Of a stretch of 64,000 nucleotides of DNA, positions 11,352 through 63,606 are shown one piece after another (the first letter of the stretch is position 1; each line of letters starts with the position of its first letter). The notes under the pieces were generated by a model that saw nothing but the letters and a program-made list of their open reading frames with translations, ran no database searches and was not told where the DNA came from. The translations under genes were made by a program, and so were the position numbers. The DNA comes from an uncultured Lachnospiraceae bacterium (GTDB lineage: Bacteria > Bacillota > Clostridia > Lachnospirales > Lachnospiraceae): positions 62,001 through 126,000 of the forward strand of contig CAMWJF010000001.1 of NCBI GenBank assembly GCA_947174505.1. The letters run 5' to 3'.

Positions 11352-12071
11352 ATGGGAAAAGAATTAAATGCGGTGGCAATCATCACTGCCCGGGGAGGCA
11401 GCAAGCGGATTCCCGGGAAAAATATCAAAGAATTTATGGGAAAGCCGATGCTGGTTTACGGTATTGAGGCGGCGCTACAGTCAGGGATATTCCGTGAGGT
11501 CATGGTTTCTACCGACGACGAGGAGATTGCCCGGATTGCGCGGGAAGCGGGGGCGGCGGTTCCCTTTATGAGAAGCGGGGAGACGTCGGGTGACTTCGCC
11601 ACCACAGATGATGTGCTCATGGAGGTGATCCGGGTTTATGAGGAGCGGGGAGAACAGTTTGATTACATGGCCTGTATTTATCCGACCGCGCCTTTTGTGA
11701 CGGCCGGGAAGCTTGCGGAGGCCATGAAACTTTTGGTGGAGCGGGACGCGTCCGGGGTGATGCCGGTGGTCCGCTATTCGTTTCCGCCCCAGCGCGGCAT
11801 GGCGATCCGGGAGGGAAAGCTTGTGTACTGCTATCCCGAAAACGCCATGAAACGGTCTCAGGATTTAGAGCCGGTGTACCATGACAGCGGTCAGTTTTAC
11901 TGCTATCATGTGAAGCGGTATCTGGCATGTAAGGGAGATCTGCCGGACGGCTATCTGCCTATTATAGTGCCGGAGACGGAGGTGCAGGATATTGATAACC
12001 CGTCGGATCTGGCGCTGGCGGAGCTGAAATTTCGGAGGATGAGGGAAAGTGGTGCGCAGGCGGATGTCTGA
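11352..12071 (+). CDS. pseF: Pseudaminic acid cytidylyltransferase
   Basis: 239 aa. Activates a nonulosonic acid with CTP to give the CMP-sugar used by sialyltransferase-like enzymes. The N-terminal AIITARGGSKRIPGKNIK is the CTP-binding signature of the acylneuraminate cytidylyltransferase family. IYPTAPFVT and YHDSGQFYCY are closer to PseF than to NeuA. VQDIDNPSD closes the family core. The gene is 60 bases before pseI, so substrate and product fit a pseudaminic-type pathway. CMP-legionaminic acid synthetase is the main alternative. Confidence 0.85.
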   Translation: MGKELNAVAIITARGGSKRIPGKNIKEFMGKPMLVYGIEAALQSGIFREVMVSTDDEEIARIAREAGAAVPFMRSGETSGDFATTDDVLMEVIRVYEERGEQFDYMACIYPTAPFVTAGKLAEAMKLLVERDASGVMPVVRYSFPPQRGMAIREGKLVYCYPENAMKRSQDLEPVYHDSGQFYCYHVKRYLACKGDLPDGYLPIIVPETEVQDIDNPSDLALAELKFRRMRESGAQADV

Positions 12072-12131
12072 ACGGCGTAACAGTGCTGTGAAAACGGACA
12101 AGGGATAGCCGCAAAGGAAAGGGAAGAACTT

Positions 12132-13187
12132 ATGGCACAGCAGAAAATAAAGATCGGCAGTCGATTGATCGGGGAGGATGAACCGACTTATATCGTGGCG
12201 GAGATGTCGGCCAACCACTTACAGGACTATGACAGGGCCGAGGCGATTATACGGGCGGCGAAGGAGGCGGGTGCGGACGCGGTTAAGCTCCAGACTTACA
12301 CGGCTGACACCATCACGATGGATTGTGACAACGAATACTTTCAGATTACCCAAGGAACGATCTGGGACGGACAGACATGCTATGAGCTGTTTCGGGAGGC
12401 TTATACGCCCTGGGAGTGGCAGCCGAAGCTCATGAAGCTGGCAAACGATCTGGGGATGGACTGTTTTTCTTCTCCGTTTGACTTCACGTCGGTGGATTTT
12501 ATGGAGGAGATGGGGATGCCTGCCTATAAGGTTGCTTCCCCTGAAATCTGGGATATTCCCCTGCTCCGTAAGATTGCGGGGCAGGGAAAACCTGTGATCA
12601 TGGCGACAGGACTCGCGCATTTGGAGGATATTGATAGGGCGGTGAAGACATGCAGGGAGGAGGGGAATGAGCAGATTATACTCCTGAAATGCGTGGCTAC
12701 TTATCCGACGCCCTATGAGGATATGAATATCAAAGTCATTCCCCACATGGCTGAGACTTTTGATTGTCTGACGGGACTTTCCGATCACAGCATGGGTTCC
12801 GCTGTAGCGGTGGCTGCGGTGGCTCTCGGTGCGCGGATGGTGGAAAAGCACTTTACGCTGTCACGGGCGGACGGCGGGCCGGATGGAGCCTTTTCCATGG
12901 AGCCTGCGGAGTTTAAAAAGATGGTGGATGAAATCCGCATTGTGGAGAAAGCGCTGGGGAAGGTGACCTACCGTCTGACGGAAAAGCAGGAGAGAAGCAG
13001 GGAGGAAGGGCGTTCCCTGTTTGTCACGGAAGATATGAAAAAGGGAGAAATTTTTACAGAGAAAAATATGCGTTCTATACGGCCGGCGTTCGGTATGGCG
13101 CCCAGATATTATGAGGAGGTGCTGGGAAAACGGGCACGATGCGATATTTCCAGGGGGACGCCGATGGATTGGAAGTATGTAGAGTAG
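12132..13187 (+). CDS. pseI: Pseudaminic acid synthase
   Basis: 351 aa. Condenses a 6-deoxy-di-acetamido-altrose with phosphoenolpyruvate to give pseudaminic acid. The NeuB-like TIM barrel occupies about residues 1 to 280, with IVAEMSANH, VKLQTYTADTIT, YTPWEW, FSSPFDFTSVDF, GLSDHSMG and MVEKHFTL. A C-terminal SAF domain (GRSLFVTEDMKKGEIF to GTPMDWKYVE) completes the enzyme. The EMSANH and GTIWDG motifs point to PseI rather than NeuB or LegI. The earlier pathway enzymes pseB, pseC and pseG are not in this window, so they must lie elsewhere. The stop codon touches the first structured intergenic repeat. Confidence 0.9.
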   Translation: MAQQKIKIGSRLIGEDEPTYIVAEMSANHLQDYDRAEAIIRAAKEAGADAVKLQTYTADTITMDCDNEYFQITQGTIWDGQTCYELFREAYTPWEWQPKLMKLANDLGMDCFSSPFDFTSVDFMEEMGMPAYKVASPEIWDIPLLRKIAGQGKPVIMATGLAHLEDIDRAVKTCREEGNEQIILLKCVATYPTPYEDMNIKVIPHMAETFDCLTGLSDHSMGSAVAVAAVALGARMVEKHFTLSRADGGPDGAFSMEPAEFKKMVDEIRIVEKALGKVTYRLTEKQERSREEGRSLFVTEDMKKGEIFTEKNMRSIRPAFGMAPRYYEEVLGKRARCDISRGTPMDWKYVE

Positions 13188-37539: not shown

Positions 37540-37564
37540 GCACTGTGGCGTCATGGAGGAAAGT

Positions 37565-38548
37565 ATGAATATTCTGATTTTGAGCGCGGGCACCCGCGAC
37601 AAGGTGGTGCAGTATTTTAAGAAGGAGCTGGCGGGAAAGGGCAGAGTGATCGCCACGGACTGCTCCAATCTGGCGCCGGCGGTGTATGAGGCTGACGCCT
37701 TTTATCTGGTGCCCAGGATCACGGAGCCGGGATATCTGGATACGGTTTTGGACATCTGTAAAAAGGAAAAGATAGCGGGCGTATTTTCCCTGATTGACCC
37801 GGAGCTTTCTCTTCTGGCAAAGGAGCGGGAACGATTCCTTGCGGTGGGGGCGACGCCCGTGATTTCCGATTATGAGTTGGTGGAGACATGCTTCGACAAG
37901 TACAGGATGTTTGAAATGCTTCGGAACATGCAGATTCCCACAGCGAAATGCTATATACAGAAGGAAGCCTTCTATCAGGCGGAGAAAGCAGGGGAAATAT
38001 CCTATCCTGTCTTTGTGAAGCCTGTGAGGGGCAGCGCCAGCATCCACATCAACAAGGTGGGGAGTCAAAAAGAGGTGGAAGTGCTCTGCGGTCTCTACGA
38101 CGATCTGATGATGCAGGAGTACATGGACGGTCAGGAATACGGTGCAGACGTGTATGTGGACATGATATCCGGGAAATGCACGGATATTTTCGTGAAAAAG
38201 AAGATCAAGATGCGGGCGGGGGAGACGGACAAGTCCGTGTCCTTCAAAGATGAGAAGCTGTTTGCGCTGATCCGGGATTTTGTGGAGGAATGCGGTTTCC
38301 GCGGTATGATAGATATCGATATATTTGAGATTGACGGCGTTTATTATATATCGGAAGTCAATCCCCGTTTTGGCGGCGGCTATCCCCACGCATACGCCTG
38401 CGGCGTGAATATGCCCGCGGCGGTGATCCGCAATCTGGACGGGCAGGAGAACGAGGTGCGGATCGGGGAATATCAAGAGGGAATCTGTATGATGAAGTTT
38501 AATGAGGTGATGATACGGGATATGTCGGGGGAGGAGATTGTATCGTAG
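37565..38548 (+). CDS. ATP-grasp ligase, carbamoyl-phosphate-synthase-like
   Basis: 327 aa from the ATG at 37565, five bases after GGAGG. N-terminal pre-ATP-grasp domain (MNILILSAGTRDKVVQYF); ATP-grasp core with YPVFVKPVRGSASIHINKV, LMMQEYMDGQEYGADVYVD, FRGMIDIDIFEIDGVYYI and SEVNPRFGGGYPHAY (metal and ATP ligands). Genes of this type often sit next to PglC-like transferases and DegT aminotransferases, but few have been studied. No PglD acetyltransferase is present in this block, so this enzyme may acylate the 4-amino group with an amino acid instead of an acetyl group. That is inference. Confidence 0.82.
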   Translation: MNILILSAGTRDKVVQYFKKELAGKGRVIATDCSNLAPAVYEADAFYLVPRITEPGYLDTVLDICKKEKIAGVFSLIDPELSLLAKERERFLAVGATPVISDYELVETCFDKYRMFEMLRNMQIPTAKCYIQKEAFYQAEKAGEISYPVFVKPVRGSASIHINKVGSQKEVEVLCGLYDDLMMQEYMDGQEYGADVYVDMISGKCTDIFVKKKIKMRAGETDKSVSFKDEKLFALIRDFVEECGFRGMIDIDIFEIDGVYYISEVNPRFGGGYPHAYACGVNMPAAVIRNLDGQENEVRIGEYQEGICMMKFNEVMIRDMSGEEIVS

Positions 38549-44394: not shown

Positions 44395-45315
44395 ATGAAA
44401 TACAGAGTAGTCGTGTTCGGGGTGAAAGATACATCCGAGAATATCGTGGATTTTATACAGAGGGAAATCTGCCCTGTGGATCTGGTCATTACGATCAGCC
44501 CGGAGGTGACGAAGAAAAATCAGGTTTCGGGATATAAAGGACTGTCTGTGCTGACGGAAAAGTACGGGATTCCCGTACATGAGGCGGACAGTTATTTTCT
44601 GACGGATGAAAAAACGCAGAAGCTGATGCGGGAGAATACGTTTGACATTGGCATTTCCATGGGATGGCAGCGTCTGATCCCGGCATCTGTGCTGGACTGT
44701 TTCAAACATGGTATTTACGGCTTTCATGGCAACTGCGGCTATCTGCCGTTTGGCAGGGGGCGCTCGCCCCTAAACTGGTCGGTGATTCTGGGGGATACCC
44801 GTTTTAACCTGAATCTGTTCCGTTATGACGAGAAGGCAGACAGCCCCAATGTGTTTGCGACAGAGATGTTTTCCATCACGCCCCACGACGATATCCGCAC
44901 GGCGCAGTACAAGAATATGATCTGCTCGAAACGGCTGATCCGTAAGCTACTTACCGCCTATGAGAGCGGGCATATCGAGATCCGCAGGGATTCCAGGGAT
45001 TTCGATTCCTGGTATGAGAAGCGCACGGCGGCGGACGGGAAAATTGATTTTCATAAAAGAACACGCGATATTTATAATCTGATCCGCGGTGTGGCGGCGC
45101 CCTTTCCGGGCGCGTTTGCCTACTGTAGAGAGCAGGAGGTGCGGGTCTGGGAGGCGCATCCTTTTGATGAGATGATTGACTTTTCGGCTTATGCGCCGGG
45201 TGAGGTGATCGATGTATTTGACGGGAGACCCGTGGTGCGCACGGTGGACGGGTCGTTGTTGATCGACCGCTATGAGAGTAGTCTGGTGTTGGAGGCGGGA
45301 GATATTTTGGTGTAG
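44395..45315 (+). CDS. Formyltransferase-like enzyme, atypical active site
   Basis: 306 aa. The fold resembles methionyl-tRNA and sugar formyltransferases: an N-terminal domain with VVVFGVKDTSENIV, catalytic region GFHGNCGYLPFGRGRSPLNW (His at about residue 111), an Asp near residues 145-149, and a C-terminal domain with RDIYNLIRGVAAPFPGAFAY as in sugar formyltransferases. The Asn normally two residues before the His is Gly here. It probably N-formylates an amino sugar using formyl-tetrahydrofolate; the PglE- or WecE-type 4-amino sugar is a natural substrate. The changed residue leaves activity uncertain. Confidence 0.75.
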   Translation: MKYRVVVFGVKDTSENIVDFIQREICPVDLVITISPEVTKKNQVSGYKGLSVLTEKYGIPVHEADSYFLTDEKTQKLMRENTFDIGISMGWQRLIPASVLDCFKHGIYGFHGNCGYLPFGRGRSPLNWSVILGDTRFNLNLFRYDEKADSPNVFATEMFSITPHDDIRTAQYKNMICSKRLIRKLLTAYESGHIEIRRDSRDFDSWYEKRTAADGKIDFHKRTRDIYNLIRGVAAPFPGAFAYCREQEVRVWEAHPFDEMIDFSAYAPGEVIDVFDGRPVVRTVDGSLLIDRYESSLVLEAGDILV

Positions 45316-49198: not shown

Positions 49199-50959
49199 AT
49201 GGGACTTAATCGGGATATAAAAATACAACGCCCCACGGGACGCAGGCTCCTGCTTCTGGTTCCCTTTGCCCTCTGTTATGCCTGTTTTGTCGTGCTGGGG
49301 GACTGGCAGGGCTCAGTGGATTACAGCAATGCGCAGAATCTGGGACGCCTTGTGCTCTGGGCGGCGGGAAGCTTTGCCGTGCTGCTTGCGGCGGGCTTTC
49401 TTCTGGAGAACTGGGCGGTTCTGGCGGAGTGTCTGCCGTCTGGTGTGCAGGCACTTTATAACAGACTGTTTCCGCCGAGGAAGAGCCGACAGGGACACTG
49501 GTGGATCTGGCTTCTCTTTTCCCTGCTGTGTCTTTTGAGTTATCTGCCATACTATCTTATGTATTATCCGACATGGTTTAACAACGATGCGGTGTGGCAG
49601 ATGGAGCAGGCGCTTGGCATGGCGGCAAAGTCCAATCATCACCCCTATTTCCACACGCTCATCATCAAAGTGTTCCTGACAGTGGGCTATGGTCTTTTTC
49701 ATGACTATACGGCGGCGGTGGCTCTCTATACGTATTTTCAGATGGCGCTCACGGCGGCGGTATTCGGGTTTTATCTGTATCTTTTGTACCGGCGGGGCAC
49801 AAGACTTCTTTGGCTTGTCCTTGCGGTATTTTTCTATGCCCTTCTTCCCATCAACGGGATGTTCAGTATCTGCATGGGCAAGGACGCCTGGTTTACGGCG
49901 GCTTTTCTCCTATTCATATGGGCGGTAAAAAACTGTGACGGACGGACAACGGCTTTGATCCGTGCTGATGAGCAGGAGAAGGATTCAGGGACGTCCGGCG
50001 GACGACGGTGGCTCCTGCTTTTTGGTACGGGGCTGTCGGTCTGCCTGCTTCGGAGCAATGGTATTTTTGTCTTTTTGGGGACTGCTTTTCTGCTGATCCT
50101 GCGGCAGCTTCTGGCAGGAAGAAAGACAGGCGGAGCCGGCGGGCTCAGCGTGGGGGGCGGGAAAAGCGGCGGAAAATATCAGGCCTATGAGTCCCGGGAG
50201 AGACAGGGCATGTATTTGGCGGTGGCATCGGTGCTGGCCTGCTATCTGCTCTGGCAGGGGCCGGTTTTGAGTGCGCTCCGTGTGGCGCCGCCGGATACCA
50301 TCGAGAGCCTGACCATGCCAACCCAGCATCTGCTCTGTACCTATGTCAGAGGCGGAAATCTCAGGGAGGAGGAAGTGGAGATGCTGGAAGCGGTAGTACC
50401 GCTGGAGCAGATTGACGACTATTACAATCCCTACTTGTTTGATATGACAAAAAATTATATACGCGAGCACGGCCGCCAGCAGATCATTGCGGATAACAAG
50501 GGGGCGTATGCAGAGCTCTGGCTGAAAGCGGGGCTTCGCAATCCCATGCTTTATCTGGAGGCGGAGATCAGGCAGACGGCAGGATATTACGCGTTACATA
50601 TTCCCCATGACCAGATTCTTTACAGCGAATATTTTATGGTAGATAATCCCTTTGGCATTGAGAATGAGAGGAAGGTTTTCAGCTATGACATGGGTCTGGC
50701 CATGGGCGAGTTCCTGCAGTGGTTTCAGACGTTTTACAACAGGGTATGGAGTCTGGGAATGAATACGTGGCTGCTGCTGTTCGCGCTTGCGTGCGCGCTT
50801 TACAGGAAGCGGCGGGCGATTGCGTTTGCGCCCTGTGTGATGCTTCTGGGGAGTCTGCTGTTGGCGACGCCTGTGTACAATGAGTTCCGCTATGCGTACG
50901 GGGTGTTTGTGGCGCTGCCGTTTTTGTTCAGTGTCGCGTTTGGGCGGGAGGCTGGATGA
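49199..50959 (+). CDS. Multi-pass membrane protein, DUF6020-like, paralogue of 26322 protein
   Basis: 586 aa, ATG after GGAGG. About 12 helices. Shared motifs with the 26322 protein: YYPTWFNNDAVWQME, then SNHHPYFHTLIIKV, then CMGKDAWFTAAFLLF, in the same order and spacing. The ~100 residues between helices in the middle contain a glycine-rich cytoplasmic stretch (GGAGGLSVGGGKSGG). The 179-base gap before it shows no promoter, terminator or repeat that I can support. Probably a GT-C-like enzyme or glycan-assembly protein. Confidence 0.72.
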   Translation: MGLNRDIKIQRPTGRRLLLLVPFALCYACFVVLGDWQGSVDYSNAQNLGRLVLWAAGSFAVLLAAGFLLENWAVLAECLPSGVQALYNRLFPPRKSRQGHWWIWLLFSLLCLLSYLPYYLMYYPTWFNNDAVWQMEQALGMAAKSNHHPYFHTLIIKVFLTVGYGLFHDYTAAVALYTYFQMALTAAVFGFYLYLLYRRGTRLLWLVLAVFFYALLPINGMFSICMGKDAWFTAAFLLFIWAVKNCDGRTTALIRADEQEKDSGTSGGRRWLLLFGTGLSVCLLRSNGIFVFLGTAFLLILRQLLAGRKTGGAGGLSVGGGKSGGKYQAYESRERQGMYLAVASVLACYLLWQGPVLSALRVAPPDTIESLTMPTQHLLCTYVRGGNLREEEVEMLEAVVPLEQIDDYYNPYLFDMTKNYIREHGRQQIIADNKGAYAELWLKAGLRNPMLYLEAEIRQTAGYYALHIPHDQILYSEYFMVDNPFGIENERKVFSYDMGLAMGEFLQWFQTFYNRVWSLGMNTWLLLFALACALYRKRRAIAFAPCVMLLGSLLLATPVYNEFRYAYGVFVALPFLFSVAFGREAG

Positions 50960-51034
50960 AAAGTTGACATGAAATATGCTGACGAACAGGATATGAATAT
51001 AGGGGAAGTAGAAATTTAATAATTTAAGGGTATA

Positions 51035-51063
51035 TTGTTCATTTGATATAGACGTAGTATGAT
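51035..51063 (+). promoter_or_regulatory. Promoter of the dlt-like operon
   Basis: TTGTTC at 51035-51040, 17-base spacer, TATGAT at 51058-51063, in an AT-rich gap between the membrane-protein gene and the SGNH gene. The start codon follows 21 bases after the -10. It suggests the 51.1-56.6 kb genes form an operon of their own. Confidence 0.6.
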
Positions 51064-51084
51064 AAAAAACTTGCGAGGTTACGA

Positions 51085-52164
51085 ATGATTAAGAAATGGC
51101 TCAAGGCGGCGCTCTTTCTCCTGCCGCTTTTCATTTTCATAGGATGGGTCAACTGGTATGTGGATTCGTACGCTCTTCTGCGCGTCACCTACGACGACAT
51201 TGCGGCGCAGATGGCGGCGGGGAAGCATGTGGAGGGGCTGGAGGACTCTGACTACAACGACAGGAATCTGCTGGCGGCGCGGCTGAAAGATATGGAGGAG
51301 GCGCCGCAGATTATGGTTCTTGGCTCCAGCCGGGTGTATACCTTTGACCATACCATGTTCGGAACGGATTCCTTTTACAACGCGGGGCTATCCGAGGCCA
51401 CGATCTATGATCTGCTGGCGGTGGCGGGCATAGGGGCATCGCAGGACAAGCTGCCGGAGACCGCGGTGATCGGCGTGGACGCCTTTCTGTTTAACAAAAG
51501 CCATGACAACGAGAAGTGGAAGGAACTGGAAAGTTATGCCAATTATATGGCGCTGACCCTGGATGGAAAACTGTCGCCGGAGCTGGCGCGTCCGCGGAAA
51601 GATACGGACCGGGACTGGGGGAAAACGTTCTCTTTAGACTATTTCCGCTATAACGTCACCCTGCTTCCCGACAGAAAGCGGTTTACCGTTTCCTACACGG
51701 AGGAGTGGGAGACGGAAGGATATCTCAAGCATTATGACGGAAGCGTCAGCTATCAGCGGGAGCTGCGGGAGGTAGACCCTGTGGACGTGGAGGAGATGAC
51801 AAGACAGGCTATGGAGGAGCATGTGGTCTATCGGATGACGGATTATGCAGAGATTGACGAGGGGCATTTTTCACGGCTTTCCGAACTGGCGGACTATCTG
51901 CTGGAGGCGGGCGTGGAGGTCATTTTATACTTGCCACCCTATTCGCCCATGATGTATAATTACATAGAATCTGAGGAGGCCTTCCAGATCACGCTGGAGG
52001 TGGAGGAAAAGGTGAAGAATCTGGCGGTAGAGAAGGGGATTGCGCTCTACGGCTCCTACGACCCGGCGGGATGCGGTCTTGAGATGGCGGATTTGTACGA
52101 TGTTTATCATGTAAAGACAGAGAAGACGGCGGATACCTACTATCCCGTGATCCCGGCAAGGTGA
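51085..52164 (+). CDS. Membrane-anchored SGNH-fold protein, DltD/AlgJ-like
   Basis: 359 aa. One N-terminal membrane helix (AALFLLPLFIFIGWVNWYV) then an outside domain. The SGNH core is seen as IMVLGSSRVYTFD (nucleophile Ser in GSSR), SFYNAGLSEATIYDLLA and, near the C-terminus, DLYDVYHVK with an Asp-x-x-His pair. DltD and AlgJ-type proteins of this fold help transfer or release acyl groups onto surface polymers. It lies first in an operon with an adenylation enzyme, carrier protein and MBOAT, so it is the likely DltD equivalent. Confidence 0.75.
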   Translation: MIKKWLKAALFLLPLFIFIGWVNWYVDSYALLRVTYDDIAAQMAAGKHVEGLEDSDYNDRNLLAARLKDMEEAPQIMVLGSSRVYTFDHTMFGTDSFYNAGLSEATIYDLLAVAGIGASQDKLPETAVIGVDAFLFNKSHDNEKWKELESYANYMALTLDGKLSPELARPRKDTDRDWGKTFSLDYFRYNVTLLPDRKRFTVSYTEEWETEGYLKHYDGSVSYQRELREVDPVDVEEMTRQAMEEHVVYRMTDYAEIDEGHFSRLSELADYLLEAGVEVILYLPPYSPMMYNYIESEEAFQITLEVEEKVKNLAVEKGIALYGSYDPAGCGLEMADLYDVYHVKTEKTADTYYPVIPAR

Positions 52165-52276
52165 GGCGGCAGCAGGGTGTAATGTGCGCCTGGTTGAAGA
52201 AAAGCGGGCGGTTTTGTCGTTGGCGGATTTTGGAAAGGGTGTCGGCGGCCACATAGATTTATGAAACGAGGACAGG

Positions 52277-53839
52277 ATGAAAGCGAACGTTACTTACTGG
52301 CTGGACGATACGGCGGCGCGTTTCCCGGATAAGACAGCCTACGCGGATGAGCATAAAGAAATTACGTTTGGAGAATTGCGGGCGCAGGCCCGGGCCATCG
52401 CCTGTGAGCTGACGGCGCGGGGGCTGTTTAAAAAGCCAGTTGCCGTTTTTCTGGAAAAGGGCGTGGACGTGCTGGTTTCCTTTATGGGAGCGGCCTATAG
52501 CTGTAACTTTTATTCCCCCATCGACGTGGACATGCCGGGGAGCCGTGTCAATAAGATATTGGAGGTTCTGGAGCCTGCCGTGGTTATCACCACAGGGTCT
52601 TTACGGGAAGCTTTTTCCGCTTATGGTTATAAGGGGGATTTTCTTCTGCTTGAGGATGTCCCGGCGCAGGGGGCGGAGACGCTTTCTTCGTCTGCGGGAG
52701 GAAATGACACCGGGGTGGAGAAGGAATCCGCACGGGAGGCGGCTTTGGAGGCGGCGAGAAGGAAGGGGATTGACACCGACCTTCTGTATGTGCTGTTTAC
52801 TTCCGGCTCCACGGGTGTGCCTAAGGGTGTGACGATCAACCACCGGGCGGTGATTGATTACATAGACTGGGTGACGGAAACTTTTTCCATCACAGAGAAG
52901 GACAGCTTCGGCAATCAGGCGCCCTTCTATTTTGACAATTCCATTCTGGATATTTACAGTACCCTGAAAACGGGCGCGACGACTTATATTATCCCGAAAA
53001 CCCTGTTCGCCCAGCCGGTGCCTCTTCTGGAATACTTGAAGGAAAAGAAGATCAATACCATTTTCTGGGTACCCTCGGCGCTGATCGTGGTGGCGAAATT
53101 GAAAGCGTTTTGGAATGTGGATTTATCGGACACGTTGCGGCGGGTGCTGTTCTGCGGCGAGGTCATGCCCAATAAACAGCTCAACGTATGGCGGAAATTC
53201 CTGCCGGAAGTACAGTACGCGAATCTGTACGGCCCCACGGAGATTACGGACGCCTGCACTTATTATATGGTAGACCGCGAATTTTCAGACGAAGAACCGC
53301 TTCCTATCGGATTTCCCATGCCAAACACGGACATTCTTGTGTTAAATGAGAAAAATGAGCCGGTGACGGGGGATGAGCCGGGCGAGCTTTGTGTCAGGGG
53401 CACGTCCCTGTCCATGGGATATTATAAGAACCCGGAGAAGACGAAGGAGGCGTTTGTACAGAATCCTCTGAACCAGGCGGTGCCGGAATTGATCTACCGG
53501 ACGGGGGATGTGGTGAAATATAACGAGCGCGGGGAGCTGGTCTATCTTTCCAGAAAGGATTTCCAGATCAAGCATATGGGGCACAGGATCGAACTGGGAG
53601 AGATTGAGACGGCGGTGTCTTCACTGCCGGAAATGTCCTTAAACTGCTGTCTCTATGACGAGAAGCGGCAGAAAATCGTGCTCTTTATCGAGGAGGAGCT
53701 GGACAAGGCGTACATCAATGAAAAGATTTCCCATCTGGTGCCGGAGTATATGCTGCCGAATAAGGTGGTCCGTGTGGAGAAGATGCCGATTAACGCCAAC
53801 GGTAAGATCGACCGGGTGAAGTTGAAGGAATATATATAA
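52277..53839 (+). CDS. DltA-like amino acid adenylation enzyme
   Basis: 520 aa stand-alone adenylation domain of the DltA/NRPS class, acting in the cytoplasm to charge a carrier protein with an amino acid at the cost of ATP. Core motifs: LFTSGSTGVPKG (about 173-184), NQAPFYFDNSILDIY (213-227), LFCGEVMPN (291-299), YGPTEITDACT, YRTGDVV, then KHMGHRIELGEIE and the C-terminal NANGKIDRVKL lysine. Asp220 and Cys293 match the DltA residues that hold the amino group and favour D-alanine. D-alanine or another small amino acid is therefore the likely substrate. Confidence 0.87.
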   Translation: MKANVTYWLDDTAARFPDKTAYADEHKEITFGELRAQARAIACELTARGLFKKPVAVFLEKGVDVLVSFMGAAYSCNFYSPIDVDMPGSRVNKILEVLEPAVVITTGSLREAFSAYGYKGDFLLLEDVPAQGAETLSSSAGGNDTGVEKESAREAALEAARRKGIDTDLLYVLFTSGSTGVPKGVTINHRAVIDYIDWVTETFSITEKDSFGNQAPFYFDNSILDIYSTLKTGATTYIIPKTLFAQPVPLLEYLKEKKINTIFWVPSALIVVAKLKAFWNVDLSDTLRRVLFCGEVMPNKQLNVWRKFLPEVQYANLYGPTEITDACTYYMVDREFSDEEPLPIGFPMPNTDILVLNEKNEPVTGDEPGELCVRGTSLSMGYYKNPEKTKEAFVQNPLNQAVPELIYRTGDVVKYNERGELVYLSRKDFQIKHMGHRIELGEIETAVSSLPEMSLNCCLYDEKRQKIVLFIEEELDKAYINEKISHLVPEYMLPNKVVRVEKMPINANGKIDRVKLKEYI

Positions 53840-53924
53840 GTAAGCTGCTTTTGATTTCTTTTCCGTCACGGCTGGTTCAGACGTGAACTTTAAATAAAAA
53901 GCATATAATATAAAAAGGAATCCT

Positions 53925-54785
53925 ATGAGGACGAATTTTGAGAGAGTTGTGGTGATCGGATACGGAAAAGCCACGGGAGAGGTACTGAAATATACGGATG
54001 ACAGGCGGGCAGACTATGGCTATGCGCTGGCGTTTATCGAGCACGAGCCGCACGCTCTGAGCATAACGGGGCAGATCTGTAAGGAGAGGGGCATTCCTTT
54101 CGCCTCTATGCCGGACAAGCGGGAGCTTGCCGATTATCTTGGTGAAATACAGGAGAAAACGCTGATTGTCTCCGCCAGCAACAATTTTCTGTTTCCGGCT
54201 GTACTGGTGGAGAAAGAAAATATTACGATCATTAATTTCCACAATGCGCTTTTGCCGGATTATCCCGGAAGGAACGCGCCGAGCTGGGTTATTTACCGGG
54301 GCGAGGAGCGAACTGGCATTACGTGGCATTATGTGACGGCAGGGGTGGATGAGGGAAATATCATCATCCAGAAGAGCTGTGAGATCGGTTCCGACACGAA
54401 GGCCTATGAGCTGACGGAACGGTTGATGGATCTGGCCTGCGAAGGATTTTATGAGTGTTTTGACGGCGTGATGCAGGAGACTGCACAGACGAGGCCGCAG
54501 GGTTTTTCGCCGGAGAGGCGGATGTACCGATCCACCGAGATGCCGGGGGACGGTTTTCTGAATCTGGAGGAGAAGCCTGAGAAACTGTACCGCCTTCTTC
54601 GCAGCGTGGATTACGGGAAAAGCGGAATCTTCCCGCCATTGCAGACGGAAGTCGCGGGAGCGCGGGCGGAGATCCTGCGGTATCGGAAGATTGCCCCTGA
54701 AAAGAGGAAAGAGGAGGCGGACATGCTGTATCTGCCCCTTGCGGACGGGAATCTGCTCAAGATAAAATATAGCAGCCGCAAATGA
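53925..54785 (+). CDS. Formyltransferase inside the dlt-like operon
   Basis: 286 aa. A formyl-tetrahydrofolate-dependent transferase with an intact catalytic triad: Asn104 and His106 in INFHNALLPDYPGRNAPSW, and Asp142 in TAGVDEGNIII, at the family spacing. The N-terminal part (VVVIGYGKATGEVLKY) and the C-terminal part (LEEKPEKLYRLLRSVDYG) complete a sugar- or NRPS-type formyltransferase fold. It sits between the adenylation gene and the carrier-protein gene, as formylation domains do in NRPS initiation modules such as that of linear gramicidin. N-formylation of the carrier-bound aminoacyl group is the favoured inference; a free amino sugar is the alternative. Confidence 0.85.
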   Translation: MRTNFERVVVIGYGKATGEVLKYTDDRRADYGYALAFIEHEPHALSITGQICKERGIPFASMPDKRELADYLGEIQEKTLIVSASNNFLFPAVLVEKENITIINFHNALLPDYPGRNAPSWVIYRGEERTGITWHYVTAGVDEGNIIIQKSCEIGSDTKAYELTERLMDLACEGFYECFDGVMQETAQTRPQGFSPERRMYRSTEMPGDGFLNLEEKPEKLYRLLRSVDYGKSGIFPPLQTEVAGARAEILRYRKIAPEKRKEEADMLYLPLADGNLLKIKYSSRK

Positions 54786-54806
54786 AAAACGGAAAGGACA
54801 TCAGCT

Positions 54807-55037
54807 ATGGAAGAAAAGGTTTTGGAAATACTGGAGGAATACTGTGAGGAAGCCCTCGATTACACAGGCGACAATATGATGGAGGAGGGCGTGATCGATT
54901 CCTTTACGGTGATTAATGTCGTGAGTGAGCTGGAGGACGTTTTTGATATTGAGATCGACGCCAAGTATGTGGTGGCGGAGAATTTCAGGAACAAGGAGGC
55001 GGTCATAGAGCTGGTGAGACGCCTGTTAGATGATTAA
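54807..55037 (+). CDS. DltC-like acyl carrier protein
   Basis: 76 aa. A typical small acidic carrier. The phosphopantetheine attachment Ser is Ser32 in MEEGVIDSFTVINVV (D-S-F in place of the usual D-S-L/M/V, as in many DltC proteins), followed by ELEDVFDIEIDAKYV and a final helix. It would be charged by the upstream adenylation enzyme and present the aminoacyl, perhaps formyl-aminoacyl, thioester to the MBOAT protein. The downstream gene starts 12 bases later. Confidence 0.92.
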   Translation: MEEKVLEILEEYCEEALDYTGDNMMEEGVIDSFTVINVVSELEDVFDIEIDAKYVVAENFRNKEAVIELVRRLLDD

Positions 55038-55049
55038 TGTGAGAAGCGT

Positions 55050-56630
55050 ATGCAATTTTTGTCAATTAATTTCGTGATATTGTGGGTGATTTCCTTTGCC
55101 CTATATTATCTGGCGCCGAAAAAGCGTCAGTGGATGATTCTGGCCGTGGCGAGCGGCCTGTTTTACGTGGCAGGGACGGGGGGAATCCCGGTGGGCATTC
55201 TCCTGACAGGGGCAGGCGCTTACGGCTGCGGCATGTATCTGGCGCGTAGTCTGGAGGCGCAGAAAACGGCACTTTCGGATATTGCGGATAAAGAGCGGAA
55301 AAAGACGGTGAAGCAGGGATTTGAGAGGCGCAGAAGACGCGTTCAAATCCTTTATTTTGTGTTCAGCCTCGGTATACTGCTCTGCACGAAGTACATGGTT
55401 GTGATACTGCCCTTTTTACAGAGGCTGGGGTTGACAACACCCCTGAGCGATGCGTTTTTTGTGCGTGTGGTGATGCCTTTGGGGATATCCTTTTATACGC
55501 TGACGGCCATCGGCTATGTGGTGGATGTGGGGCGGGAACAGTGCAGGGCACAGGAAAATCCCGTCAGACTTTTCCTGTTTCTGGCCTATTTCCCGGCCAT
55601 TACACAGGGACCCTTTAACCGTTATGGGAAATTGCGGGAAGAATTTGAGCGGGAGCATGTCTTCGATTATGAGCGGATGCTTTTCGGCGTGCAGCGGTTT
55701 GTCTGGGGCGCGTTCAAAAAGCTGGTGATTGCGGACAGGATCAATCTCTTCGTGGGAAATGTGTTCGGGAGCGTGGGCGGCGGCCTGCCGGGCAGCATTT
55801 ACGCGCTGGCGGTGGTTCTCTATATGCTGCAGCTTTACGCGGATTTTTCGGGATATATGGATATGGCGCTGGGAATCAGCGAGACTTTTGATATATCGCT
55901 CCCTGAGAACTTCAAAAGGCCCTATTTTTCCAGATCTGTGGCGGAATTTTGGCGCAGATGGCACATTACGCTGGGGACATGGTTCAAGGACTATGTGATG
56001 TTCTCCTTTGTGATGTCCGGGACGGGGCGGAAAATAGGCAAGGCGTCGAAGAAGAGATGGCCGAAGATGGGAAAACATGTGACGGGCGTGATCGGGACAA
56101 TGCTTGTCTGGCTGCTGACGGGTATGTGGCACGGCAGGACCGTGAGTTATATTCTCTGGGGTGTCTATTATGGCGTTATTATGTGCGTCTCGCTCGTGCT
56201 GGAACCGCAGTATGGCATTTGGAAGGATAAGCTTCATATAAAGGAAGGAAAGCTTTACCGTTTCTTCACTATGGCCAGAACCTGGGCGATCGTGTTTGTG
56301 GCGGATGTGCTGATCCGTTCAGAGAGCCTTTCCCAGGCGGGGGAGATTTACCGGGCGCTTTTTACGGACTTCCGCATCAAGGAGGGGATTTTGGGCGTGA
56401 CCTCCTATGGGCTTAGCAAGTATGGATTTTTATTGCTGGCGGCATGCTGCCTGCTTTGGCTTGTGGTTTCGATATGGGAGGAACGTGGTAAAGATGTGCG
56501 TCGCACACTGTCTTCCTGCCCGATGGCAGTGAGGTGGTGCTGTTATTATGGTGTGGCGCTGCTTTTGCTGATTACAGGGATTTATGGCGGCAGTTACGAT
56601 ACGGCAGCGTTTTTATACCAAAGTTTCTAG
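55050..56630 (+). CDS. MBOAT family acyltransferase, DltB/AlgI-like
   Basis: 526 aa, about 11 membrane helices. MBOAT hallmarks: MPLGISFYTLTAIGYVVDV, YFPAITQGPFNRY, LYADFSGYMDMALG, EFWRRWHITLGTWFKDYV, and LTGMWHGRTVSYILWG with the catalytic His. DltB accepts the D-alanyl group from DltC and moves it across the membrane. Here the group may be formylated first. It closes the SGNH, adenylation, formyltransferase, carrier and MBOAT operon. Confidence 0.92.
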   Translation: MQFLSINFVILWVISFALYYLAPKKRQWMILAVASGLFYVAGTGGIPVGILLTGAGAYGCGMYLARSLEAQKTALSDIADKERKKTVKQGFERRRRRVQILYFVFSLGILLCTKYMVVILPFLQRLGLTTPLSDAFFVRVVMPLGISFYTLTAIGYVVDVGREQCRAQENPVRLFLFLAYFPAITQGPFNRYGKLREEFEREHVFDYERMLFGVQRFVWGAFKKLVIADRINLFVGNVFGSVGGGLPGSIYALAVVLYMLQLYADFSGYMDMALGISETFDISLPENFKRPYFSRSVAEFWRRWHITLGTWFKDYVMFSFVMSGTGRKIGKASKKRWPKMGKHVTGVIGTMLVWLLTGMWHGRTVSYILWGVYYGVIMCVSLVLEPQYGIWKDKLHIKEGKLYRFFTMARTWAIVFVADVLIRSESLSQAGEIYRALFTDFRIKEGILGVTSYGLSKYGFLLLAACCLLWLVVSIWEERGKDVRRTLSSCPMAVRWCCYYGVALLLLITGIYGGSYDTAAFLYQSF

Positions 56631-56725
56631 CGTCGCAGGCGCGGCATCAGCGGCCAGAGAACTGCTGTGTGATGCTTTCTTAAATGGTTTACGGTAGGGG
56701 CATATGCCCTGACAGGGAGGTTAGC

Positions 56726-58213
56726 TTGAGAGGAAAAAGGATAGCGGAAATTCTAATTTTGGCAGCATGTCTTATTGTAATTGCGGCTGTGGTGATTCTT
56801 TTTGCGGCGGGCGCAGGCTATACGGTGCTCAGCGGGGATGATTTTACCCACGGCGTGAGGGTGGGGGCGTTTCATGTTTCGCTGCCGCAGTATTTTGCGG
56901 CGTCTCTTCTGTATGTAAAGGATCTGTACATGGACTGGCAGGGGACATGGTTTTCCATGTTTTTACAGGCCTTTCTCTCGCCGATCAATAATTTTGGCCT
57001 GCCCCAGCTTCGGGCGGTGATGGTGGGGAATGCGCTGCTGTTTCTCATATCGCTGGCGGCTCTTTTGTGTGCGGGGCTTTCCTTCTTTCGGATGGAAGAG
57101 GACGCTTTTTCCGGGCAGGCGGTATTCGGAACGAAGAGGCTTATGCCCCTGCGGCTTGTGATCCTTCTGCTTTTCTTCCTGACTGTGGTGGACGCGGACG
57201 TCTATGCGGAGATTTACTTCTGGTTTTCCGGGGCGGTGGCGTACAGTATGCCTTTTTCTCTGCTGCTCATGGCAGGGACGCTGATTCTCCTTATGAATCA
57301 GGAAAAGTGCAGTATCCGTGGGAAAAAAGTCTGTGCGGGAATTGCGGCAGTTCTTTTGTTTCTGTCCTCCGGCGGCTCTTTGGCGGTGGCGGGCGTGGGA
57401 TGTTATATGGCGCTGGCGCTGACGGTGGTATTTTTCCTCTCCACGGGTAAAGTGTCCTGGTATAATCTGACGGTTTTTGCGGCGGGATTCGCGGGCGCGC
57501 TGATCAATGCGGCCGCGCCCGGTAACTTTTCCAGACACGATGGGACGGCGGGAGCAGGCCTGCATTTCGGACAGGCGATAGTCGATAGCGTACGTATGTT
57601 TGCAGAGGAGTCAGGCAGACTGTTTCGGGAGACGATGCTCGGACTGGTATTTCTTCTGCTGATTGCGGCGGGTGTGTATTTGTCGGGAAGATGCCGGATC
57701 GCTTTTCGGGAGTACGGCATTGCCACGGTGCTTGCGCTTCCGGCGGGACTCGTGGCATATTTTCCCGTGGCGCTCGGATATGGCGGGTATTATGTTCCAA
57801 ACAGGTGTTATTTTATAATCGACACAGCGATGGTGATATCGCTATTAAATCTGGCGCTGTTTCTGGGCGTCTGCTGTCACAGGCTCTGTGGTCTGCCGTC
57901 GGATGGGCGCACGGTTACGGTACTGCTCTATATTTGTCTGGCGGCGCTGATTGTCACGCCCCTGTCCATGGAGGAACTGCCTCTTTACCGGGTGGCGCGC
58001 CATGTACACAATGGGAGTTACCGGGAGTATTATGAAAAGTGTGCCGGACTTTATGACTATCTTGAAAACTGTCCGGAGGAGGACGTGGAACTGGAAATGC
58101 CGGAGTATATCGACGATTTTGAGTGCTTCTATTTCGACGAGGATGAGAATGGCTGGGTGAATCAGGGGATTGCCGCATATTACGGAAAACGGTCCGTGCG
58201 TAGGGCGCAGTAG
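56726..58213 (+). CDS. Multi-pass membrane protein, DUF6056-like
   Basis: 495 aa from a TTG at 56726, five bases after AGGGAGG; the ATG at 56684 lacks a ribosome site. About ten helices, with YTVLSGDDFTHGV in the first outside loop, DWQGTWFSMFLQ, and NAAAPGNFSRH later. The SGDD loop, the W-G pair and the PGN motif recall the DUF6056 group (name from memory), suspected membrane glycosyltransferases. A soluble acidic C-terminal stretch ends the protein. It may add sugar branches outside the cell, close to where the acyl group is added. Confidence 0.7.
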   Translation: MRGKRIAEILILAACLIVIAAVVILFAAGAGYTVLSGDDFTHGVRVGAFHVSLPQYFAASLLYVKDLYMDWQGTWFSMFLQAFLSPINNFGLPQLRAVMVGNALLFLISLAALLCAGLSFFRMEEDAFSGQAVFGTKRLMPLRLVILLLFFLTVVDADVYAEIYFWFSGAVAYSMPFSLLLMAGTLILLMNQEKCSIRGKKVCAGIAAVLLFLSSGGSLAVAGVGCYMALALTVVFFLSTGKVSWYNLTVFAAGFAGALINAAAPGNFSRHDGTAGAGLHFGQAIVDSVRMFAEESGRLFRETMLGLVFLLLIAAGVYLSGRCRIAFREYGIATVLALPAGLVAYFPVALGYGGYYVPNRCYFIIDTAMVISLLNLALFLGVCCHRLCGLPSDGRTVTVLLYICLAALIVTPLSMEELPLYRVARHVHNGSYREYYEKCAGLYDYLENCPEEDVELEMPEYIDDFECFYFDEDENGWVNQGIAAYYGKRSVRRAQ

Positions 58214-62451: not shown

Positions 62452-63606
62452 GTGAATAAGAAAAAGCAAACAGGAGAAGAGAGGTCGCGGATTTCGGCGA
62501 AAAAGGAAAATGACGGGAAGGAACCCGGAAAGGGGCGGCGCGAAGCGCTGCAGGCAGTCGTTTTTGTGCTGCTGTTTCTGGTTATTCTTTGGCCGGTATC
62601 CTATATGGTGAGGACAAACGGCGATGTGAAGGATCGTTTTGCCGGCTTTTATGCGGAAAAGAAGGATTCGCTGGACGTTGTGATCATTGGCTCCAGCCCG
62701 GTATTTCCTTATTATGCGGCGCCAAAGCTGTGGGGGGAGACGGGAATCGCGATGTATCCGCTGTCTACCAATGTACAGCGGCCAGCGGCCATGCGTTATC
62801 TGGCGGAGGAGGCGAAGAAAACCCAGTCGCCTGCGCTCTATATTTTTGAGATGCGCATGTTTACGATGGAAGAGGCGGGACTGATGGAAAATATGGCCTA
62901 TACCCGGGGCGTGACGGACAATCTGCGCTATTCTCCCCAGCGGATCAGGACGATACAGGGGCTGGTGCCTGAGGATGACGAGGAAGGCCGTTTAAGCTAT
63001 TATATAGACATTATGAAGTATCACACGAACTGGAAAATGCTGGCTCTTCCCTCCGAGTGGGCGAATATGTTCTATTGTCACAGGCATCCGTTAAAGGGAT
63101 ATACCTTCCGGGATGAGGTGGGACCGCAGCCCATGCCGGACTGTGGCGGCGCGGAGGGGGTTCTGGCGATGCCAAAGGAACAGGAGGCGTACCTGCGGGA
63201 TCTCATCGCCTATTTGAAGGAGAACGGACAGGAAGCGTTGTTTATCGTCTCTCCCTACGGGGAATCGCTGAAGGAGCAGCAGATGTTCAACTACATGGCG
63301 GGGATCGTGGAAGAAAGCGGCTATGCCTTCCTGAATATGAACGATTATTATGAAGAAATCGGCATTATCTTCGAGGAGGATTTCGCGGATTACGGCAGTC
63401 ATACCAACGCGGCGGGCGCGGAAAAGTGCACGGACTTCCTGAAAGAGTATCTGACGGCCCGCTACGCTTTCCCGGATCATCGAGGAGACACTTCCTACGG
63501 TTCCTGGGACGAGGCCTATGAGCTGTGGCAGATGAGGCAGGAAGAGGCGGTTGAAACGATCAGGGAGCGGATTGCAAATGAGGATTACGCGCAGTACGAA
63601 GAGTAG
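62452..63606 (+). CDS. Membrane-anchored SGNH-fold protein
   Basis: 384 aa from a GTG with AAGGAGAG upstream. A basic N-terminus, one membrane helix (AVVFVLLFLVILWPVSYMV), then an outside domain. VVIIGSSPVFPYY supplies the likely nucleophile Ser and TNVQRPAAMRYLAEEA follows. SPALYIFEMRMFTMEE and a late DYGSHTNAAGAEKCTDF with an Asp-His pair close the SGNH-like core. Similar in plan to the 51085 protein but not a close copy. A role in acyl transfer or removal on the exported glycan is inferred. Confidence 0.72.
   Translation: MNKKKQTGEERSRISAKKENDGKEPGKGRREALQAVVFVLLFLVILWPVSYMVRTNGDVKDRFAGFYAEKKDSLDVVIIGSSPVFPYYAAPKLWGETGIAMYPLSTNVQRPAAMRYLAEEAKKTQSPALYIFEMRMFTMEEAGLMENMAYTRGVTDNLRYSPQRIRTIQGLVPEDDEEGRLSYYIDIMKYHTNWKMLALPSEWANMFYCHRHPLKGYTFRDEVGPQPMPDCGGAEGVLAMPKEQEAYLRDLIAYLKENGQEALFIVSPYGESLKEQQMFNYMAGIVEESGYAFLNMNDYYEEIGIIFEEDFADYGSHTNAAGAEKCTDFLKEYLTARYAFPDHRGDTSYGSWDEAYELWQMRQEEAVETIRERIANEDYAQYEE

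Follow-up and report, generated by a model that had tools for sequence, protein, structure and literature searches.

In textbooks, D-alanylation is how Gram-positive cells make their surface more positively charged. Formylation of an amino acid on its carrier is described for linear gramicidin synthetase, in which the formyltransferase domain of LgrA formylates valine on the peptidyl carrier protein (PCP) (PMC5053139, in the part of the article available to us). Dlt systems, fused formylating modules of this kind and sugar formyltransferases are already known. Here we analyzed a stretch of 64,000 nucleotides from an uncultured Lachnospiraceae bacterium (the window), in which five consecutive plus-strand genes (51085-56630) are embedded in a long surface-glycan locus. 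They encode, in this order, an SGNH-like protein (D), an adenylation enzyme (A), a formyltransferase (F), a carrier (C) and an MBOAT (B) (Table 1). The same order had been given in a preliminary description of this DNA, and the open reading frames (ORFs), together with Pfam and NCBIfam matches for A, F, C and B, bear it out. From the sequences, we consider it probable that this operon performs dlt-like surface aminoacylation with a built-in, trans-acting F, which would formylate the carrier-bound amino acid before the MBOAT transfers it to a glycan.

We asked whether the arrangement recurs in other genomes, as the preliminary description had proposed. A species-genome collection was scanned with F alone, which yielded 80 loci with up to 10 kb on each side (<9 kb on at least one side in 23 of them). 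The loci came chiefly from Lachnospiraceae, and also from other Bacillota, Methanocorpusculum, Methanomicrobium, Helicobacter, Vibrio, a planctomycete and others. A, F and C were immediate neighbours, with A before and C after F, in 55 of the 80 loci; 42 of these also carried B and D labels, six had B but no D, and seven had neither (three of the seven have <9 kb on one side). The stop codon of A overlapped the start of F by four bases (as in ATGA) in 11/55 A-F-C loci. In two loci (L111 and L113), neither A nor C was labelled at the cut-offs of this count. The C model used for the count and for two other scans had been built with one GNAT-C fusion (L089), so it also caught GNATs; a later scan used a clean C model.

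Within the genus of the window, F was present at E <1e-50 in 36 of 60 genomes, its own included. F and a high-scoring A (E <1e-230) occurred together in 35 genomes, F only in one (G014), A only in one (G011) and neither in 23 (Fisher p 2e-14, with relatedness ignored). The gap between the A and F matches was 2-202 bp in 35/37 cases and 796 and 1024 bp in the other two, and one further F had no A on its contig. The order A-F-C-B was kept in 28 of the 29 genus loci L008-L036; the exception, L026, lacks C and B in its 1.5-kb flank, and L060, to judge from its coordinates probably from the same genome, has a 506-aa ORF between F and C. Many of the same genomes stand under two names in the genus loci and the F-only loci, so the two sets of counts are neither independent nor additive. 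F is under purifying selection, with a median dN/dS of 0.115 over 58 pairs drawn from 43 loci with all five genes (>78% identity, dS 0.05-1.5), and the other four genes gave 0.062-0.121. The adjacency of A, F and C in the F-only loci and the co-occurrence of F and A in the genus make the gene order more than chance. The earlier picture of a dlt-like operon with an embedded formyltransferase holds in that the A-F-C order recurs across genomes and F tracks A and C.

The preliminary description had also read a full Asn104-His106-Asp142 triad in F. The triad is present, and it is NHD in 79/80 F proteins from the F-only scan (NHE in one, L104). The predicted structure of F (mean predicted local distance difference test score 96.7) has a formyltransferase fold. 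Several observations weigh against an action of F on a carrier. The nearest solved relatives of F by sequence are sugar formyltransferases, closer than the F domain of LgrA, and the predicted fold is also slightly closer to some sugar formyltransferases. The window makes amino sugars and carries two DegT genes (~19 and ~30 kb upstream of F) as well as a polysaccharide-type dehydratase. Furthermore, F is uncommon outside its genus, and no F lies near any of four As elsewhere with the exact pocket code of the window's A, among the 30 A loci read from the bacterial family. These points leave room for a different explanation, namely that F is a nucleotide-sugar N-formyltransferase of the glycan locus that sits in the operon by chance, while an unformylated amino acid is exported onto a formamido-sugar polymer. 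A GT4-like gene, found in 47/80 F loci, would fit this as well.

We consider this explanation unlikely, because A-F-C persists where amino-sugar genes are not nearby. A DegT sugar aminotransferase was matched in 6/80 F loci within the same stretches of up to 10 kb per side (the window's own DegT genes lie beyond such reach), and in archaea the trio stands amid housekeeping genes. Such linkage of A, F and C without amino-sugar genes is the comparative evidence expected if F acts on an aminoacyl carrier. Moreover, F pairs with different A codes and MBOAT cassettes, and it scores far under the equivalog cut-offs of sugar formyltransferases (PRK06988 78.5 of 316, ArnA 62.7 of 777 and PRK07579 40.7 of 238 bits). 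The window also holds another formyltransferase, ArnA-like, at 44395, although it has Gly in place of the triad Asn. This second gene (44395-45315) is ArnA/PRK06988-like with a C-terminal domain and reads Gly-Phe-His where the triad has Asn-x-His; a paralogue in the same genome (L004) reads, by eye, Gly-Val-His at that position.

A gave 336 bits with the NCBIfam model AA-adenyl-dom and remained below the DltA cut-offs (TIGR01734 314.7 of 559.85; NF003417 319.8 of 476), so that it is not a DltA equivalog by curated cut-offs. When its whole length was compared with PDB, LgrA was the best match, followed by other nonribosomal peptide synthetases (NRPSs) and DltA; with the pocket region alone, a prolyl-carrier ligase came first, then DltA, then LgrA. 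The preliminary description had taken the pair Asp220/Cys293 as a mark of D-alanine specificity. Both residues are where it placed them, but the pocket, DNLFLCLDAK, differs from that of DltA at 5/10 positions and gives no sign of such specificity. DltA (3dhv) reads D L M T L C T V A where A of the window reads D N L F L C L D A; the numbering of the pocket positions is the one we take to apply, and the tenth residue, a Lys read in A, is assumed for DltA. D-alanine as the substrate, as that pair had been taken to imply, is thus not supported by the sequence. No DltA-equivalog match was obtained at E 1e-100 in 61 genomes (the window's own and 60 relatives); the B. subtilis and L. lactis controls matched. 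Within the reach of that search, the operon is therefore not an extra copy beside a standard dlt operon.

The retained Asp220 bears on the order of events. We expect this residue to bind the alpha-amino group of the substrate, and A should therefore load a free amino acid, which places formylation after loading, as in LgrA. In addition, the same A code occurs at loci without F, so A does not need a formylated substrate. Both observations argue against formylation of the free amino acid before loading. This early step forms one half of a second alternative; the other half is that the amino acid is first transferred to a cytoplasmic acceptor, for instance a nucleotide sugar or a lipid-linked sugar, and then formylated by F. 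Some related cassettes with soluble acyltransferases (AAC(3)-like, GNAT) could indeed make a cytoplasmic aminoacyl sugar. The transferase of this operon, however, is of the MBOAT type, and its counterpart in dlt acts across the membrane; we regard early or late formylation as improbable.

In the mechanism that we favour, formylation on the carrier, A would adenylate a free alpha-amino acid, probably a small one, and load it as a thioester onto the phosphopantetheine arm of C. F would then use 10-formyl-tetrahydrofolate in the cytoplasm to formylate the alpha-amino group of the C-bound amino acid. B, with an SGNH partner such as D, would take the N-formyl-aminoacyl group from C and transfer it outside the membrane, where the acceptor is most likely a hydroxyl of a glycan from the surrounding locus; this locus suggests a capsule-like or exopolysaccharide glycan. 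We infer the action of F on the carrier-bound amino acid, the glycan as the acceptor and the direction of transfer. Folate chemistry is cytoplasmic. DltC also stays in the cytoplasm and does not cross the membrane (PMC3783018, in the part available to us), so that capping before the MBOAT transfer would be the natural order. The preliminary description had invoked NRPS initiation modules as the precedent for formylation of a carrier-bound amino acid, and the F domain of LgrA does act in this way on its PCP (same part of PMC5053139).

C scored below the cut-offs of the DltC models (TIGR01688 24.2 of 52.35 and NF003464 38.4 of 68 bits) and is not a DltC equivalog; its best solved match is a D-alanyl carrier protein (7e-5). 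The Asp-Ser carrier site was found in 54 of the 55 Cs of A-F-C loci, with Asn-Ser in the last one. B matched the DltB model TIGR04091 at 1.7e-46 but below the cut-off (159 of 375 bits), its profile matched a solved DltB at 2e-35, and His305 and His361, presumably catalytic, are invariant in 10 aligned Bs. For D, which had been described as an SGNH protein like DltD, the first part stands: the SGNH-type residues Gly80, Ser82, Asn99, Asp339 and His342, which we assume to be catalytic, are invariant in 9 aligned Ds. The likeness to DltD is weak. The window protein matched no Pfam family at E 0.001, PF04914 reached E 0.001 at best in 4/9 members of the D alignment (the window's D not among these), and a PDB comparison with the D profile gave no solved DltD up to E 1.

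Two Methanocorpusculum loci show the trio in a reduced setting, with genes for a phosphopantetheinyl transferase, A, F and C in a row (L084, 8116-11134; L085, 8104-11134). Of the 20 other ORFs listed for L085, all scanned against Pfam, 11 have a family and 9 do not; the families, with purine, tRNA, DNA-repair and peptidase functions among them, include phosphopantetheinyl transferase, adenine deaminase, class II tRNA synthetase, ERCC4 helicase, Thg1, two PmbA/TldD, glutamine synthetase and others, and there is no glycan gene among these 11. Furthermore, three draft genomes with the trio (G463, the genome of L084, G665 and G681) gave no MBOAT match at E 0.001. Judged by gene content, the sole evident partners of F in Methanocorpusculum are A, C and the phosphopantetheinyl transferase that arms the carrier, and B and D appear dispensable to the trio. 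One could thus imagine that A-F-C makes a small N-formyl-amino-acid product or a peptide starter rather than a surface group, B and D being later additions or serving another target. Archaeal trios without recognised glycan genes or MBOAT speak for this, whereas the B label in 48/55 A-F-C loci, as in dlt operons, speaks against it, and, as far as the Pfam scans made would reveal condensation or thioesterase genes, we find it very improbable. That the trio recurs in other bacteria and in archaea suggests that these cells may decorate surface sugars with formyl-capped amino acids.

Finally, we asked how strictly F is tied to one type of A. Among the 55 trios, the A code was DNLFLCLDAK in 50, had one position changed or unread in three, was cut off in one and read DILFFALVDK in one; DNLFLCLDAK accompanies the F clade of the window in both bacteria and archaea. 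A second F clade (six rows, L125 included, in a tree whose outgroups sit on very long branches) contains the Fs of L119-L122, and DVKIMSLCNK is the A code at these four loci; the A of L123 was not seen. F was also found with the code DVKVLSLCNK in the order A-C-F (L124), with DIRMLVLGVK and an Asp/Glu racemase (L172) and with DMKMLSQGAK and a GNAT (L171). The reverse case was seen as well. Among the 30 A loci of the bacterial family that were read, with part of their neighbour genes scanned against Pfam, the exact code of the window's A was found where a GNAT follows A and F is absent (L126/L173 and L127/L174) and with neither F nor GNAT (L129 and L131; in L131 the neighbour of A is an AAC(3)-like gene). 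F and a GNAT are both present in L089, where a GNAT is fused to C, and in L104, where it is fused to F. Methyltransferases lie beside A or C in L096 (with F) and L169 (without F).

On the simplest reading of these gene neighbourhoods, A and C would form a platform and F would be one of several optional tailoring enzymes. A wider proposal, to which we give about an even chance, is that dlt-like cassettes serve surface aminoacylation as a modular platform in which the N-capping slot can be exchanged (formyltransferase, GNAT, methyltransferase or none). The aminoacyl groups on the cells would then be N-formylated, perhaps N-acetylated or N-methylated, or free; the self-contained A-F-C core would have moved between gut Bacillota and methanogenic archaea, and F would represent a new stand-alone class of formyltransferases acting on aminoacyl-carrier proteins.

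Other cassettes differ in the genes around A. In the dlt-like cassettes L142 and L172, an Asp/Glu racemase gene lies beside A (Pfam), which suggests D-aspartyl or D-glutamyl surface groups; L140, L148 and L149 have the A code of L142 and neighbours of similar size. A gene of 396-416 aa lies between A and C in L139 (DVKIMSLCNK), L141 (DVKVISVCNK) and L150 (DVKILSLCNK), and that of L150 encodes an ornithine/DAP-decarboxylase-fold enzyme. In the Vibrio group (L105 and L175), F-like genes accompany A genes with other codes and fatty-acid-type genes (KAS III of L105 by Pfam, the rest by eye), and these loci perhaps make a longer formylated acyl group.

The operon is flanked in the window by genes for a DUF6020 protein (49199-50959) and a DUF6056 protein (56684-58213). 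ORF ends are longest-ORF calls, hence the intergenic gaps are approximate. A promoter that had been placed ahead of the operon was not borne out, as the 7 promoter-like sites in 50900-56800 are at chance level (4.9 in shuffles, standard deviation 1.9). Further downstream, 62452-63606 encodes a protein without a Pfam match at E 0.001; in many loci of the genus, 29 of which were measured, its homologues are encoded ~3-8 kb downstream of B. Upstream, an ATP-grasp enzyme with a PylC-like N-terminal domain (37553-38548) adjoins a bacterial sugar transferase gene. A NeuB-family synthase is encoded at 11352-13187, and the gene before it resembles a CMP-sugar synthetase by eye; a nonulosonic acid is thus a possible product of the same locus.

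Table 1. Genes of the D-A-F-C-B operon and residues discussed in the text (positions in the window)
Feature	Position	Strand	Basis
D: SGNH-type protein, weakly DltD-like, 359 aa	51085..52164	+	ORF; invariant SGNH-type residues, 9 homologues; weak PF04914/PF07611
A: stand-alone amino-acid adenylation enzyme, 520 aa, pocket code DNLFLCLDAK	52277..53839	+	AMP-binding 7e-70
A Asp220	52934..52936	+	invariant in 16 aligned As
A Cys293	53153..53155	+	common to DltA and LgrA module 2
F: formyltransferase, 286 aa, proposed aminoacyl-carrier N-formyltransferase	53925..54785	+	Formyl_trans_N 3e-20; predicted fold
F Asn104, triad	54234..54236	+	NHD in 79/80 Fs
F His106, triad	54240..54242	+	NHD in 79/80 Fs
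F Asp142, triad	54348..54350	+	NHD in 79/80 Fs
C: carrier protein, DltC-like, 76 aa	54807..55037	+	PP-binding 5e-4
C Ser32, phosphopantetheine site (Asp-Ser)	54900..54902	+	invariant in 13 aligned Cs
B: MBOAT acyltransferase, DltB-like, 526 aa	55050..56630	+	MBOAT 3e-10 (Pfam)

If carrier-bound formylation is what this operon does, the formyl cap would leave the transferred group neutral (a chemical expectation), and a genus of Lachnospiraceae would be putting the D-alanylation type of machinery to another use. For the N-formyl-aminoacyl groups that chemical work has shown on at least one bacterial polysaccharide, this would be a possible route of synthesis, and F would do as a free-standing enzyme what the F domain is described as doing within gramicidin synthetase.

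Compared with Dlt D-alanylation, the operon has the same logic, with stand-alone A and C, an apparently DltB-type MBOAT and a putative SGNH-type partner; it differs in the embedded F, in half of the A pocket and in the scores of A, B and C under the Dlt cut-offs. With the F-A-PCP module of LgrA it shares an F, an A and a carrier that would all act on one amino acid, and the triad, the Asp-Ser carrier site and Asp220 of A are all present here. In LgrA, however, these are parts of one chain, whereas here A, F and C are separate proteins whose product would go to an MBOAT; moreover, the sequence of F is nearer to sugar formyltransferases, and the pocket region of A is nearer to the prolyl-carrier ligase and DltA. 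The sugar N-formyltransferases (WbkC, ArnA, QdtF, WlaRD and VioF) have the same fold and Asn-His-Asp triad and are closest to F in sequence, but F appears, within the stretches of up to 10 kb per side, to be tied to A and C genes rather than to sugar aminotransferases, and it lies below their equivalog cut-offs. The preliminary description knew of no system of this kind. This holds for the genes, as no dlt-like operon with a free-standing formyltransferase was found in our searches of the open-licence literature, but not for the product type, which has a precedent in the N-formyl-L-alanyl group reported in the O2 lipopolysaccharide of Vibrio anguillarum (PMC10059132, in the part available to us). 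There, too, a formylated aminoacyl group is carried by a bacterial polysaccharide, the difference being that this polysaccharide is a Gram-negative O antigen.

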